A program made the position numbers and the translations under genes. Under the pieces are notes generated by a model. It worked only from the letters and a program-made list of their open reading frames with translations. It was not told the DNA's origin and did not search any database. A stretch of DNA of 64,000 nt from Roseivirga sp. E12 (GTDB lineage Bacteria > Bacteroidota > Bacteroidia > Cytophagales > Cyclobacteriaceae), in the NCBI RefSeq assembly GCF_017592825.1, contig NZ_JAGFMD010000001.1, positions 682,001 to 746,000 of the forward strand, written 5' to 3'. Shown piece after piece: positions 1,606 through 9,500 of the stretch; the stretch's first letter is position 1, and every line of letters begins with the position of its first letter.

Positions 1606-1941
1606 ATGACTGACACTGGATTTCATGTATATATACTCACCAACTCCACGAAGAAGGTCTTATATACTGGGATTACAAATGACCTGAGTTCTAGGCTAGT
1701 GGAACATTACTTAGAAAGAGGAAACAAGAAAACCTTCACAGGTAGATACTATTGTCATTACCTCCTTCATTATGAATACCATCATACAGCAATTGGTGCA
1801 ATTGAAAGAGAAAAAGAAATCAAGGGCTGGAGAAGGGCAAAGAAAGAAGAACTCATCAATAGTCAGAATCCTAAATGGGAATTCCTCAATCATGAAGTCA
1901 CTACCTGGCCGCCAGAACCTGGGGCTGGGCGTCAGTATTGA
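1606..1941 (+). CDS. GIY-YIG single-domain nuclease
   Basis: A 111-residue protein of the small GIY-YIG nuclease superfamily, a metal-dependent endonuclease fold. The GIY half is VYI at residues 8-10 and the YIG half is YTG at 20-22, followed by the conserved Arg30, the Glu in the EREKEIK helix at 68-73, and Asn88-Pro before Trp91, so all core positions are present. The C-terminal tail after residue 97 (Pro/Gly-rich) is not part of the fold, and its TGA stop lies inside a truncated copy of the palindromic repeat that follows. Position immediately ahead of a palindromic repeat array recalls REP-associated transposases, which are also orphan nucleases beside hairpin repeats; that comparison is inference. 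A housekeeping structure-specific nuclease role is the alternative. Confidence 0.9.
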   Translation: MTDTGFHVYILTNSTKKVLYTGITNDLSSRLVEHYLERGNKKTFTGRYYCHYLLHYEYHHTAIGAIEREKEIKGWRRAKKEELINSQNPKWEFLNHEVTTWPPEPGAGRQY

Positions 1942-1980
1942 CTTTCAATGGGGTAAAGATCCCTCCTTTGTCGGGATGAC
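1938..1980 (+). repeat. Truncated palindromic element overlapping the nuclease stop codon
   Basis: These 43 bases match the second half of the unit at 2387-2471 with only two differences, but the left arm is missing. The match begins at the base before the TGA stop (1939-1941) of the GIY-YIG gene, so the repeat provides the end of that reading frame. It looks like an element broken at, or joined to, the gene's 3' end. Confidence 0.85.
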
Positions 1981-2018
1981 TAAAGAATTAAGGGTTAAGA
2001 CAAGAAAAAAGTTAGAAC

Positions 2019-2721
2019 GTCATTCCGAGGTACAAGGAATCCCAACCATTAACACAGATCGGGATTTGCTATGCGCAGAAGACCCCTCAATTTTTCGAGA
2101 TGACTAAAGAATTAAGGGCTAAGGCAAGAACAAAATTAGAACGCCATTCCGAGGTACAAGGAATCTTAACCATTAACACAGGTCAGGATTTGCTATGCGT
2201 AGAAGATCCCTCAATTCTTCGGGATGACTAAAGAATTAAGGGCTAAGACAAGAACAAAATTAGAACGCCATTCCGAGGTACAAGGAATCTTAACCATTAA
2301 CACAGATCAGGACTTGCTATGCGTAGAAGATCCCTGAATTCTTCGGGATGACCAAGAAATAGAGTTTCGAAAAACTAAATTAAAACTTCATTCCGAGGCA
2401 CAAGGAGTCTTTACCACTAACGCAGGTTTTGACTTTCTATGGGGTAAGGATCCCTCCTTTGTCGGGATGACTAAAGAATTAGGATCTAGAGCAAGAACAA
2501 AATTAGAACGTCATTCCGAGGTACAAGGAATCTTAACCATCCATAGGGAGAGGAATTTTCTGTGAGGATAGGATCCCTCATTCTTCGGGATGACTAATGA
2601 TATTGAATTAGTAGGAAAAATTCTAACTAGAACGTCATTCCGAGGTACGAGGAATCTTAACCATTCCTGCAAGTCCATATTATCTGAAATACACAGAAGG
2701 CCCCTCCCTTGTCGGGATGAC
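2019..2721 (+). repeat. Array of six ~86 bp palindromic elements
   Basis: Six full units lie at 2019-2104, 2143-2228, 2267-2352, 2387-2471, 2510-2594 and 2634-2721. Each opens with an arm like GTCATTCCGAGG and closes with an arm like CTTCGGGATGAC, giving a 12-pair outer stem, a further inner stem (GGAATC against GATCCC) and a ~40-base loop. Units are separated by ~38-base linkers that are themselves similar, so the first three units form a tandem of period 124; spacing becomes 120-124 later. Loops fall into at least two types: units 1-3 share one, while unit 4 and the truncated copy share another. Similar 'cattccgag...cgggatgac' palindromes are, to my knowledge, dispersed in many Bacteroidetes genomes. 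No coding function is evident; this fills the 854 bp between genes. Confidence 0.93.
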
Positions 2722-5137: not shown

Positions 5138-6541
5138 CTAAGCAGGTCCCCAGTTAATTGATACCGTAATCAGCAATATCGTCCATGAAATCAGCAGGAC
5201 TAAACCAACTACCGGAATGATAAACCTTAGCCATCGATCGAAGGGAATTCTACACATGGCTAACATCGCGATCAAACCACCAAGTGTGGGATTAAATAAG
5301 TTTGTGACACCATCGCCTATTTGGTAGGCCAAGATAGTTGTCTGACGTGTAAGGCCTAATAAATCACCCAAAGGAATCATTATGGGTAATGTGGCCAAAG
5401 CCTGACCACTTCCAGAAGGGATGAAGAAGTTGATTACAGACTGTGCCCCTGACATGGCAACTGCCGAAGCATACAAAGGCAGTTGAGATAGGCCTTGGGA
5501 CAGATAATAGGCAATACTATCAGAGATATTACCCATTTCCATTGCCACCTTAATGGAAGTGGCAAAGCCCACCATAAAAGCTCCAGGGGCCACAACAGAA
5601 ACAGATTTCAAGGCAGTTTCACTTATCGTTCGACCACTCATTCCTCCAGCGAGGCCTGCGGCTATCGAGATCATTAGAAAGATGGCCGATATTTCGTTGA
5701 TGTACCAATGGTATTCAAAAACACCAAACAGCATAATGCCCATTCCGCCTACGAAAATTGCCATGATCAACCAGTTATTGGCTGTCATCTGATAAGTTTC
5801 TAATGGTTTGGAGAGTTCAAACCCCTTTGTGTCAATGCCCAATGAAAGACTACTCTGAGGGTTTTTAAGAATACGTTTAAAGTACCTAATGTTGAAATAG
5901 GCCAAAAGAGATAATGCGCTCAGGCACAAGATAGATCTGATAAGCCAACCTGAATACATTGGCATCTCGGCAATCGTATGGCCTGTACCCACGGTATAAG
6001 GATTAAATGGCGATAAGCCGAAGCCCACAGTCACACCTCCTACTGAAATGGCTGCTGCCAGCATCAAATCCCCACCTATTGCCAAACTGGTTATAGCAGC
6101 GATAGGAATCAGCGCGATATTATTCTCATAACCGACAAATACTCCTAGCATGCCGAAGATAAAAGTCATAAGCACTACTACAAGGTATCGCCTTTCTAAC
6201 CCCAGCTTCTTCATAAAAGTACCCACAGCGTTTTCGATCATCCCTGAACGTTCGAGGATGCCAAACATGATCCCACTAGAAAGCACAACAAAGATGATGG
6301 CGATGGCGGAGGCAAAACCGCCAGGAATAGCTAAAAAAGTGTCTAGAAACGAAAGTGGAGTCTGTTCAATGGCCTTATAAGAGTCTGGAATTACTCTTTG
6401 TCGGCCATCAACAAGCTCTCGATCAAAGCTTCCTGCTGGAATGATGTGACTCAATACGGCAGTAAGCACAATGATCGCGAAGAGCATCACAATAGGATGC
6501 GGAATTCGCTGATACCACTTTTTAGAAATCAATTCTGACAC
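5138..6541 (-). CDS. YfcC-family membrane transporter
   Basis: A 467-residue integral membrane protein with about 12 hydrophobic segments, matching the YfcC/AbgT-related family of secondary carriers, several of which are thought to move amino acids, dipeptides or C4-dicarboxylates. The N-terminus (WYQRIPHPIVMLFAIIVL, then HIIPAGSF) is typical, as is the conserved FFIPSGSGQALATLPIM loop and the late DGVTNLFNPT segment. The GTG start overlaps the TAG stop of the BNR-repeat gene by one base (TAGTG), indicating translational coupling. The ArgE-like gene follows after ~110 bp. The context suggests import of an amino acid derivative for cleavage by the M20 enzyme; substrate not known. Confidence 0.88.
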   Translation of the reverse strand: MSELISKKWYQRIPHPIVMLFAIIVLTAVLSHIIPAGSFDRELVDGRQRVIPDSYKAIEQTPLSFLDTFLAIPGGFASAIAIIFVVLSSGIMFGILERSGMIENAVGTFMKKLGLERRYLVVVLMTFIFGMLGVFVGYENNIALIPIAAITSLAIGGDLMLAAAISVGGVTVGFGLSPFNPYTVGTGHTIAEMPMYSGWLIRSILCLSALSLLAYFNIRYFKRILKNPQSSLSLGIDTKGFELSKPLETYQMTANNWLIMAIFVGGMGIMLFGVFEYHWYINEISAIFLMISIAAGLAGGMSGRTISETALKSVSVVAPGAFMVGFATSIKVAMEMGNISDSIAYYLSQGLSQLPLYASAVAMSGAQSVINFFIPSGSGQALATLPIMIPLGDLLGLTRQTTILAYQIGDGVTNLFNPTLGGLIAMLAMCRIPFDRWLRFIIPVVGLVLLISWTILLITVSINWGPA

Positions 6542-9500
6542 TAATCTTCCTTAAGTGCTTCGAATTCTTTCTTGATCTCTTGAAACTTAGACTTCAACTC
6601 TTCGAACCTGTCATAAGCATCCTTGCCAGGCTGTTGATCAGCTCGGCCGATCATGCTATTCAGGTAACCAGTTTGAGCACTAAGCATCGGTTGCATATAT
6701 GTACCTGGGGGTGTCACTAGTTGATAGTACACCGCATCTAGGGCTTCCTTCTTTCTTTGATCCCTTTTACTCGCTCTTTCTTGATTAAGAGAGTTCTCAA
6801 GGGCCTTTCTTTCTTCGCCTACTGTTTTTATCAGCTTGGCAACCTCTCCTTGAAAATCTCTTACTGCTAAGGCTAATGCTTCTTGCATTTTAACATCAGC
6901 ATCATTTACTAAAGTTGCACGAGGGTCTAACCTTACGTTAAACTCCTTTTCGAGTACCTGACCTCCAATGGTCAAACGTGCCTTGTATGTTCCTGTAGAT
7001 ACCATAGGGCCATTGCCTAGATAAGAACGATTAGGGTTTGCACTCCACCCTCCGTGATGCCTCATATTCCAGTTAAATCGATTGATTCCAGCTTTATTTG
7101 ACAGCCCACCAGAAGCTGGAGCATTACTGAAACCAGTAGCCATATCCACCTCAGTGTCTACTGCTGGTTCTGACTTACCACTAACAAATGATCTCACCAC
7201 TCTTCCTGAATTGGTCAGAATATCGAGTCTCACATCTTGCTTAGTATCTGCTATATAGTACTCTAGGTTTGCACCTGGTTGTGGGCTTTGACGACTATTC
7301 ATTCTGAACCTAACCGCATCTTTCGGATTGAAGAAGTAGGCAGTTTCCTGTACAGCTTCCGTCAGGCTTCGAATGCTAGAAATATTGTCAAGTATCCAGA
7401 AACCTCTACCCATAGTAGACATCACCAAATCGTCTTGATGAATCTTCATATCCGTTATTGGTGTAACCGGTAAGTTATTGTTAAACTCATTCCATGTTTC
7501 CCCATCATTCAAAGAGATAAAGAGTCCAAACTCGGTACCAGCATAAAGGACGCCTTCCTTATTGGGGTCTTCTCTGATTACTCGAGTTGGATAGTCAGCA
7601 GGCAAGCCGTTGTCTCCAGTGGTGATTAGCTCCCAAGTCTTTCCATAATCCTCTGTTTTATAGATATATGGAGCATAATCGTTCAATTGATATCTTAATA
7701 TTGCCACATAAGCTTTGGCAGGGTTGTGTACGGATGGTTCTACCGCATCTACTCGACCGCCAATTGGCATATCTGGAGTCACTCTTTCCCAATTGGCACC
7801 ACCATCTTTTGTCACATGAACAGGGCCATCGTTAGCTCCAACCCAAATCAGGCCTTCTTGAATTTTTGATTCCTGAATAGCATAAATGGTACTGAAGTAT
7901 TCTTCACCTGTAACGTCTCTAGTGATTGGCGCTCCTGGCACAACCTGATACTCATCTTCAAAGGCAGTCAGGTCTGGAGAAATAATTTGCCATGTCTTTC
8001 CGTCATCCATGGTTTTATGGACATACTGAGAAGTATGATACACTACATTAGGATTGTGAGGAGAAATATGGATTGGTGCCACTCGCTGGAACCTAAATTT
8101 CAGGTCCTTAGGGTTGTGACCATAAATATTACTTGCACCGACATAGTACTGCATTTCCTGACCAGTACGCTTGTCAAAGGTTCCGAATCGACCCTTGCAA
8201 TTTGAGTACACAACGTCCGAATTACCCGGTTTAGGCACTGCAGGACCTGTTTCACAACCCCCTACTCCGAAAATAGTAGAGCGCGCAGCTCCAGTCTGCT
8301 TACTCGGCACGGCCATAGTTGAATTATCTTGCTGACCTGCATAAAGCCAATAAGGCGTTTGGTCATCCACATCTACCTGATACAATTCTGCCGTTGGCTG
8401 GTTAGACTGAGTAGACCATGACTTGCCATTATTCAATGTCACGTTGGCACCACCATCATTTGCCTGAATCCAAATAGATGTATCATTTGGGTTAATCCAA
8501 ATATCATGATTGTCACCATGAGGAGTTCTTAGAGCCTTCCATGATTTACCACCATTCTCAGATTTCAGAAACCTTAATGCACTGTTATACAGCACGTTTT
8601 CATTCCTTGGGTTAGCATATATATTCGTATAGTAGAAAGGTCTATTGGTTAAGTTCGAGTTATCAGAAACAAACTCCCAATTCGCTCCACGATCGTCCGA
8701 CCTGTAAAGCCCTCCTTGGTTTTCTGAAGCCTCAATGTTAGCGTAAACCACATTTGGATTGGCAGGTGACACGGCAAAATCAATCTTACCAATTAAGGCC
8801 GTAGGCAAACCATTAGTCAGTTTCACCCAATTGACGCCACCATCAGTAGACTTATAAACGCCACCTTCACTTGATCCACTAATAATGGTCCATGGCTTGC
8901 GCTCTCCTCTCCAGGCTCCAGCATATATCGTATTTGGGTCGTCTGGGGCAAGTTCAAGGTCTGAGAACCCAACACTATCTGAGTGATAGAGGATTTTGTT
9001 CCAAGAAGCTCCACCATCGGTAGTCTTGTAAATCCCACGATCCTCATTTTTGCCAAATGCCTGGCCAATTGCCGCTACATACACGACATCTGGATTATCA
9101 GGGTGAATCTCAACGGCTCCAATTTGACCGGTATTCTTCAATCCTACAAACTCCCATTTCTTTCCAGCATTGATCGACTTATAGACACCTTTACCAGTGA
9201 TCACATTGGATCTGATACCGTCCGAACCTGTACCCACATAAAGGATATCTGGTTGCTTTTGATAAACAGCTATCGCACCAATTGAAGGAGTTGGAAAGTA
9301 GCCATCAGAGATGTTTTTCCAGGAGATTCCGTAATCATCAGTTTTCCAAACACCTCCACCAGTGGCACCCATATAGAATACGGAGGGTTGGGTTTCAACG
9401 CCCATAACGGCTGTTACTCGACCACCACGGTTGGGCCCGACAGTCCTGAATTTGTATGACTTTAGTAATTCACTTACATCCTGTCCAAGTACAGGAATGC

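Follow-up and report, generated by a model that had tools for sequence, protein, structure and literature searches.

A clade of single-domain GIY-YIG nucleases, here called class A, makes up, with a probability of roughly 70%, the dedicated partners of CGTC-type REPs, nuclease and repeat together forming a REPtron-like mobile unit in which a GIY-YIG enzyme takes the place of the HUH one. The CGTC superfamily is one of two superfamilies of tagged REPs, the other being GTAG, and its members, with a CGTC, TGTC or CCTC tag, an 8–9 bp stem starting with AT, a 4–5 nt loop and a 3-nt tail, occur mostly as inverted dimers and rarely in clusters in Proteobacteria, Chlorobi, Bacteroidetes, Spirochaetes and Thermotogae (Di Nocera, De Gregorio, Rocco 2013; PMC3733652). 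According to the accessible text of that paper these REPs ‘apparently’ have no dedicated transposase, what moves them is left open and their occurrence with other transposase genes is limited to a few fortuitous cases; the string ‘GIY’ has 0 occurrences in the same text. The published lack of a transposase for CGTC REPs was an absence of evidence.

The window, by which we mean the whole 64-kb stretch of Roseivirga sp. E12 DNA analysed, carries on its + strand at 1606–1941 a class A gene of 111 aa, assigned by its position in the tree described below and by a match of residues 7–80 to PF01541 (GIY-YIG; E = 8e-13), the sole Pfam match of the protein. Y9, Y20, R30, E69 and N88 are invariant in an alignment of 28 sequences (the window protein and 27 relatives); these Tyr, Tyr, Arg, Glu and Asn residues, which we take to be the GIY-YIG catalytic set, place the protein together with the domain match in the GIY-YIG superfamily. 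The only solved chains matched by its sequence were PDB 1zg2 and 1ywl (E = 1e-9 and 4e-7), orphan GIY-YIG proteins of the UPF0213 group that are of similar size, the likeness being one of sequence match alone. With GIY-YIG homing endonucleases of the I-TevI type class A shares the PF01541 superfamily and, probably, the selfish spread of the nuclease gene; it differs from them in being single-domain, the window protein scoring 17.6 bits on the NCBIfam group I intron endonuclease model against a cut-off of 56.05, and in the gene-free dispersed copies read in one relative (G048), which have no common flanks. Identity as a phage or defence gene was dropped, as the window gene had no match in PHROGs or PADLOC at E 0.01 nor in the phage collection at E 1e-5. 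Comparison with its ortholog in the congener G011 gave a dN of 0.18 with saturated dS (NG86), in line with purifying selection. The window's own genome (G000) has 12 GIY-YIG genes, namely UvrC, one within a 460-aa open frame and ten orphans, of which five are class A and five class B.

On the + strand at 28–1593 lies the 3′ part of a neighbouring 753-aa ORF that extends upstream of the window to G000:C11:681332, the part within the window having no Pfam match. A counterpart of the ORF, conserved at 66% identity, lies next to the G011 nuclease, and at the same locus in the congeners G017 and G002 the ORF, nuclease and array are jointly absent. We do not claim the ORF as cargo, though the whole block is missing there, because no half-element was seen on its outer side.

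The preliminary description, that of an orphan single-domain GIY-YIG gene followed by six imperfect palindromes of ~86 bp, holds good: behind the gene the array runs from 1956 to 2721 with six units of 85–88 bp whose starts are 120–124 bp apart, and Tandem Repeats Finder returned an unstranded tandem array of period 124, with 5.8 copies and 80% matches, at 1956–2665. Each 86-bp palindrome has two parts, inverted half-elements that are each able to fold as a hairpin of their own according to the scheme 5′-GTC-ATnnn...n′n′n′AT-C, with an unpaired tag and with GA after nnn. The six REP-like dimers, likewise unstranded, lie at 2019–2104 (left half 2019–2041, right half 2081–2104), 2143–2228 (2143–2165 and 2205–2228), 2267–2352 (2267–2289 and 2329–2352), 2387–2471 (2387–2409 and 2449–2471), 2510–2594 (2510–2532 and 2572–2594) and 2634–2721 (left half 2634–2656), the right half of the sixth being imperfect and missed by the hairpin scan. 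Dimer 5 is the best match of the covariance model introduced below (E = 7e-16) and is itself among the 14 sequences of that model. A truncated seventh copy had been placed at the end of the array; the partial copy in fact comes first, being a right half-element found by the hairpin scan beside the gene at 1958–1980, which on the − strand reads AGTC-ATCCC-9 nt-GGGAT-CT. Because the orthologous gene in G011 sits inside one whole palindrome, 1958–1980 most plausibly represents what is left of the right arm of the gene-bearing palindrome. A head pattern of the element, allowed up to 3 mismatches, gave 6 matches in the window and 0 in 100 dinucleotide shuffles.

All six left halves in the window are of type TCC, whilst the right halves found, six in number, comprise five of type CCC and a deviating one (ATCTC with a G-T pair); the units are therefore heterodimers. 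The left halves are tagged CGTC (three), CGCC (two) or CTTC (one) and the right halves found AGTC (five) or GGTC (one). AT at the stem start is invariant in the six left arms and pairs with AT (one G-T) on the 3′ side, the scan itself having required CAT, and the halves have a 5-bp stem and a 9–10-nt loop. All six units are inverted dimers, yet they are clustered in tandem. The repeat was rejected as a known RNA family, since Rfam gave only two matches in the window region, both far below the cut-offs, and only two tRNAs in five relatives.

What the window repeats have in common with CGTC REPs is the AT-started stem, inverted dimers foldable as a large palindrome and, in most of the halves found, a GTC-type tag, as well as heterodimers and a range over several phyla including Bacteroidetes (both described in the accessible text of PMC3733652). 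The window copies differ in their 5-bp stem, their 9–10-nt loop and their lack of a CCA tail, in the AGTC or GGTC tags of their right halves and in their tandem clustering, which is rare in the published families; a further difference is that here a GIY-YIG gene regularly lies beside the repeats, encoding a nuclease that is at most a putative transposase. Since stem and loop are outside the published range, we file the array as a short-stem relative and not as one of the four published families.

The association of nuclease and repeat is real, wide and specific. GTDB contigs were searched by protein similarity only and the best 80 of at least 352 relatives, from many phyla, were taken; a correctly oriented motif lay within 300 bp at 54 of these best 80 loci compared with 49 of 1905 control intervals; motifs flanking on both sides were present at 34 of the 80 genes and in 1 of the 1905 intervals. 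Within 100 bp of the gene GTCAT-type motifs have a density per kb of 4.7 on the upstream and 8.1 on the downstream side, falling to 0.08–0.15 per kb at 1.6–5 kb, so that the motif is dense near GIY-YIG genes and sparse away from them rather than evenly scattered, the pattern that the preliminary description had held would speak against a link. The repeats are ~29 times as dense within 300 bp of the genes as they are beyond 1 kb at the same loci (3.30 vs 0.114 per kb). An inverted-repeat score of the flanks that makes no use of the motif pointed in the same direction more weakly, with 24 of 79 genes exceeding the 99% level of the controls and 37 exceeding the 95% level (one of the 80 loci was omitted for having too little flank).

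In a tree of 87 GIY-YIG proteins the repeat-associated ones form a clade of 68 rows with support 100/99, the inner forks being weak because there are few columns. The tree omits L081, which has a broken frame, and L074 and L078, which have <75 aa up to the first in-frame stop. A strict hairpin test, which asked for GTCAT and a perfect stem of length 5 or more no farther than 300 bp from the gene, was passed by 51 of 65 clade loci, a set that includes L074 and L078 and excludes L081, compared with 67 of 1834 control intervals and with 1 of 14 outgroup GIY-YIG genes (p = 9e-7 vs the clade). It was also passed by 16 of 26 class A loci from relatives of the window genome, one of them the window gene, and by all eight alphaproteobacterial class A loci (five new, three already in the 65), compared with 1 of 29 class B GIY-YIG loci. 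Loci at contig ends had been dropped (4 of 30 from the relatives, 1 of 9 alphaproteobacterial and 1 of 30 class B), L227, L228 and L235 were left out of the alphaproteobacterial set as belonging to other phyla, and the same genes stand in two sets as L229 and L063, L230 and L076, and L232 and L075. Among the 14 of 65 clade loci that failed, some, for example L022 and L030, visibly have palindromes; a further 10 of the 26 loci from the relatives failed as well. Inspected by eye, the gene often lies within the loop of one palindrome, as at L030, L038, L041 and L045.

Canonical CGTC REPs surround the nuclease in some Proteobacteria. The gene of Azospirillum lipoferum 4B lies amid CGTCATCCCCGCGAAGGCGGGGATCCA (stem 8, loop 4) on both sides and that of Sinorhizobium meliloti Ak57 amid CGTCATCCTCGGGCTTGACCCGAGGATCCA (stem 9, loop 5), with strict CGTCATCCTCGGGCTTGACCCGAGGATCCA copies upstream and variants downstream (by eye); both species are among those named for CGTC REPs in the accessible text of PMC3733652. 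Such canonical REPs are also found beside the gene in Neorhizobium, Shinella and Rhizobium CIAT894, and a stem of 8–9 bp with a loop of 4–5 nt occurs in all five of these as well as in A. caviae, several of the alphaproteobacterial loci sharing with the published REPs the exact combinations of stem 8 and loop 4 or stem 9 and loop 5 and the CCA tail. In the plasmid collection, where 11 of 26 matching records were examined, 8 of the 11 pass the strict test and a CGTC or TGTC tag is present in the flanks of 8 of the 11; three records fail the test, and of these Sphingobium and Sinorhizobium K101 have a variant hairpin (by eye). In Rhizobium tumorigenes the nuclease is present and the repeat was not found in its flanks. 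In a Planktothrix agardhii plasmid (L240) three pairs of REP halves lie within 300 bp of a GIY-YIG gene that is itself located between an MmeI-type restriction gene and DISARM drmA.

The stems of the half-elements covary. Half-elements were found within 800 bp of the nuclease match at 54 of 80 loci (the best 80 of at least 352), and in these near-gene halves the three variable stem positions all pair in 182 of 215 cases; after de-duplication 75 of 103 pair, whereas 2000 shuffles paired 22.2 on average and never more than 35. The 3′ arm had been set before the first ATC[TC] with complementarity not used as a criterion. Fully paired stem types include TGC, TCT, CCT, TTC, TCC, GCT, CCC, GTC and CGC. 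Pairing extends to halves beyond 800 bp (31 of 50), and the hairpin form is thus shared by copies far from the gene.

Stem type follows the nuclease lineage across phyla. On the nuclease tree the stem types of 55 labelled rows (five own-genome labels assigned by eye, the remainder by script) require 19 changes vs 31.8 when shuffled, with none of 200 shuffles as low, and type TGC, represented by 20 rows across many phyla, requires 3 vs 16.4. Within the Bacillota, TCT and TGC types go with different nuclease branches. Four three-letter stem types are represented in the flanks of the five own-genome class A paralogues; two paralogues, the window gene and L004, have TCC in common but differ in the remaining stem bases (both by eye). 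That stem type tracks the nuclease, and that paralogues in one genome differ in type, favours recognition over mere host ancestry.

The repeat also depends on the nuclease when whole genomes are compared. Among 59 genomes (the window's own and 58 relatives) class A was present at E 1e-19 or better in 34, as counted by hand, and in 35 at 1e-10. R1, a covariance model of the dimer built from 14 sequences that are mostly from Bacteroidota and include one TGC type, matched at E 0.001 in 27 of the 34 nuclease-bearing genomes vs 2 of the 25 nuclease-free ones (p = 3e-8); equal repeat numbers in genomes lacking the nuclease, the other outcome named beforehand as speaking against a link, are thus not what was found. 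By genus, again tallied by hand, the repeat occurs in 12 of 17 with the nuclease vs 2 of 23 without (p = 1e-4), and R1 matches counted on both strands number at least 382 in nuclease-bearing genomes vs at least 3 in the others, up to 74 candidates per genome having been scored, with stricter filters for over 40 genomes. In seven of the 34 nuclease-bearing genomes R1 found no repeat, a point against the partnership. Enrichment near the gene and dependence of the repeat on the nuclease support the earlier suggestion that this may be a REP-like system with a different nuclease class.

Copies away from the nuclease are expected, as they would be non-autonomous. The window repeat type gave 12 BLAST matches in its own genome, 7 of them in the window array and the remainder at three places with no nuclease nearby. 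At C11:478.3k, 602.5k and 1327k there are arrays of similar repeats with no GIY-YIG gene nearby, and in some the left half contains longer inserts. In G048, 18 dispersed copies were read that have near-constant ends (17 of 18 start with GTC) and unrelated flanks, and two families, CCT and GCA/GCC, are both dispersed. The intact class A nuclease of that genome is flanked by the GCA/GCC family and a second class A frame has an internal stop; neither frame was found flanked by the CCT family, for which no partner was seen in G048. At L092 and other loci repeat halves are translated into protein ends, for example ..CHPERSEGS.. at the C-terminus of the L092 frame, and spurious or extended annotated proteins are therefore possible.

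Whole cassettes are present in some genomes and absent from the corresponding loci of their relatives. At the window locus the G011 ortholog, 76% identical, is enclosed by a whole palindrome next to the same 753-aa ORF; where the block is missing, in G017 and G002, its two outer neighbours adjoin each other. Within the genus, two more loci vary in this way. Downstream of pruA a palindrome-borne nuclease is found in the window's own genome and in G003, and in G016 a relative split into two frames lies ~1 kb downstream; the other 12 of 15 pruA loci have no nuclease in the stretch examined, although in two of them (G002 and G011) class A is represented on the opposite side of pruA. Behind pruA in the own genome (L158, ~6000–6700) the last codons and stop of pruA occur on both sides of the palindrome, each copy followed by a terminator-like hairpin, as if the 3′ end of the target had been duplicated upon insertion. 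Upstream of an HD-domain gene nuclease and repeats are present in G000 and G001 and a lone element in G007, and the other 10 of 13 loci have no element in the 460 bp inspected (elements by eye). The clearest presence/absence case is that of A. lipoferum 4B, in which a dimer-nuclease-dimer cassette lies in the 617 bp between sufB and sufC, compared with spacers of 91, 87 and 129 bp without nuclease, and by eye without repeat, in A. ramasamyi, A. oryzae and strain B510, whose aligned flanks are 95–97% identical to those of 4B. The contrast is similar in Shinella, where WSC3-e and HZN7 have 1226 and 1237 bp vs 637–639 bp in the two annotated of three other records. No target-site duplication was identified at sufB-sufC or in Shinella, and the cassette junctions are not base-precise, because the spacers are too diverged.

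These loci bear on the main rival explanation, according to which the REPs are landing sites only and a selfish, homing-type GIY-YIG gene inserts into repeats spread by another enzyme. Such genes are often inside or between dimers, GIY-YIG homing endonucleases exist, and insertion sequences that target REPs have been described (accessible text of PMC1525189 and PMC8450116). Targets, however, should exist without their invader, and the rarity of the repeat in nuclease-free genomes (2 of 25) disfavours this explanation; moreover, the three cassette-free Azospirillum congeners have no REP in the spacer (by eye), and the few other transposase genes found with CGTC REPs were judged fortuitous (accessible text of PMC3733652). 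We consider it unlikely. More unlikely still is a nuclease that serves the host by resolving or trimming repeat cruciforms, in the manner of SbcCD or SLX1, and so polices them from next door. It would fit the purifying selection suggested by a dN/dS of about 0.03–0.13, depending on the method, in two nuclease pairs without saturation, and the structure selectivity of the GIY-YIG relative SLX1 (accessible text of PMC9071465), but several paralogues per genome with different stem types, patchy occurrence within one genus and the absence of short cassettes from close relatives are better explained by a mobile unit. That chance hairpins, ordinary terminators or regulatory hairpins happen to lie near these genes is hardly credible, common as hairpins are near short intergenic genes, given the control intervals, the covarying stems, the ~29-fold density, the outgroup (1 of 14) and class B (1 of 29) genes and the coupling of stem type to nuclease across phyla.

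A class A nuclease that mobilises REPs is therefore the reading that we prefer, and a likely one on this comparative evidence. REP/RAYT systems (TnpA-REP, REPtrons and REPINs) offer the nearest parallel: there too the hairpins are short, carry an unpaired tag and form inverted dimers, one small nuclease gene has copies of its own repeat type on either side, and other copies are dispersed without the gene. They differ in having an HUH tyrosine transposase where only GIY-YIG models match here and a GTAG tag where the tag here is GTC-type; unlike theirs, the gene here may be carried within the loop of a single dimer. TnpA-REP cleaves single-stranded REP next to the structure (accessible text of PMC8266576). 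By analogy we infer that the class A nuclease recognises, cuts and copies or moves its REPs. The unit, of ~0.5 kb and comparable to a REPtron, has the nuclease gene either enclosed by a dimer loop or flanked by dimers; upon hairpin or cruciform extrusion the nuclease would recognise its own stem type and nick at the tag ends, as an equivalent of TnpA-REP acting on GTC-tagged hairpins or cruciforms. Being hydrolytic, GIY-YIG enzymes are not known to join DNA, so host help would be needed to rejoin it. The freed or broken element might then be copied by host replication and repair into new, mostly intergenic sites, with gene-free copies spreading in trans like MITEs or REPINs and local copying giving rise to arrays such as that of the window.

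The preliminary description knew of no such role for GIY-YIG proteins, and we too found no report of one with REP repeats among the matches listed in the literature searched, which excludes most subscription journals and all bioRxiv preprints. The string ‘GIY’ is absent from the accessible text of PMC12306157, PMC6006769 and PMC8266576, as is ‘palindrom’ from that of PMC1564403, on GIY-YIG nucleases.

Class B genes, all but without CGTC-type halves under the strict test, have a different neighbourhood. The five class B orphans of the window's own genome (L005, L006, L007, L008 and L013) all lie by tRNA genes, and class B genes at E 1e-12 or better occur in 34 of the 59 genomes. At loci L194–L223 a tRNA gene, of 12 amino-acid kinds in all, is found within 300 bp at 24 of 30 and anywhere in the locus at 26 of 30 (raw counts). 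By eye, many of 15 class B loci inspected have a partial tRNA copy with a GC-rich hairpin in the anticodon region, often CCCGA..TCGGG, which takes the place of the anticodon arm, and a copied terminator alongside, and several are in tandem arrays. Class B is possibly a tRNA-targeting GIY-YIG mobile element. More broadly, and with slightly less than even confidence, we suggest that lone GIY-YIG nucleases may drive minimal mobile elements of their own, one clade moving CGTC-type REP dimers in many phyla by hairpin or cruciform cutting and host copying and a second acting similarly at tRNA genes, where it would leave hairpin-inserted tRNA fragments. This broader reading would add a mobile-element chemistry apart from that of the DDE, HUH, serine and tyrosine enzymes and would explain one of the two REP superfamilies.

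A candidate enzyme family now exists for the CGTC REPs, described in 2013 in five phyla (accessible text of PMC3733652). The stem-type code predicts which nuclease goes with which repeat, which puts the question within reach of experiments with short oligonucleotides and one small protein. If the proposed partnership is true, a second, unrelated enzyme class would have entered the REP world in convergence with the HUH RAYTs, genes annotated merely as ‘GIY-YIG nuclease family protein’ would gain a function and a common class of intergenic repeat an explanation.
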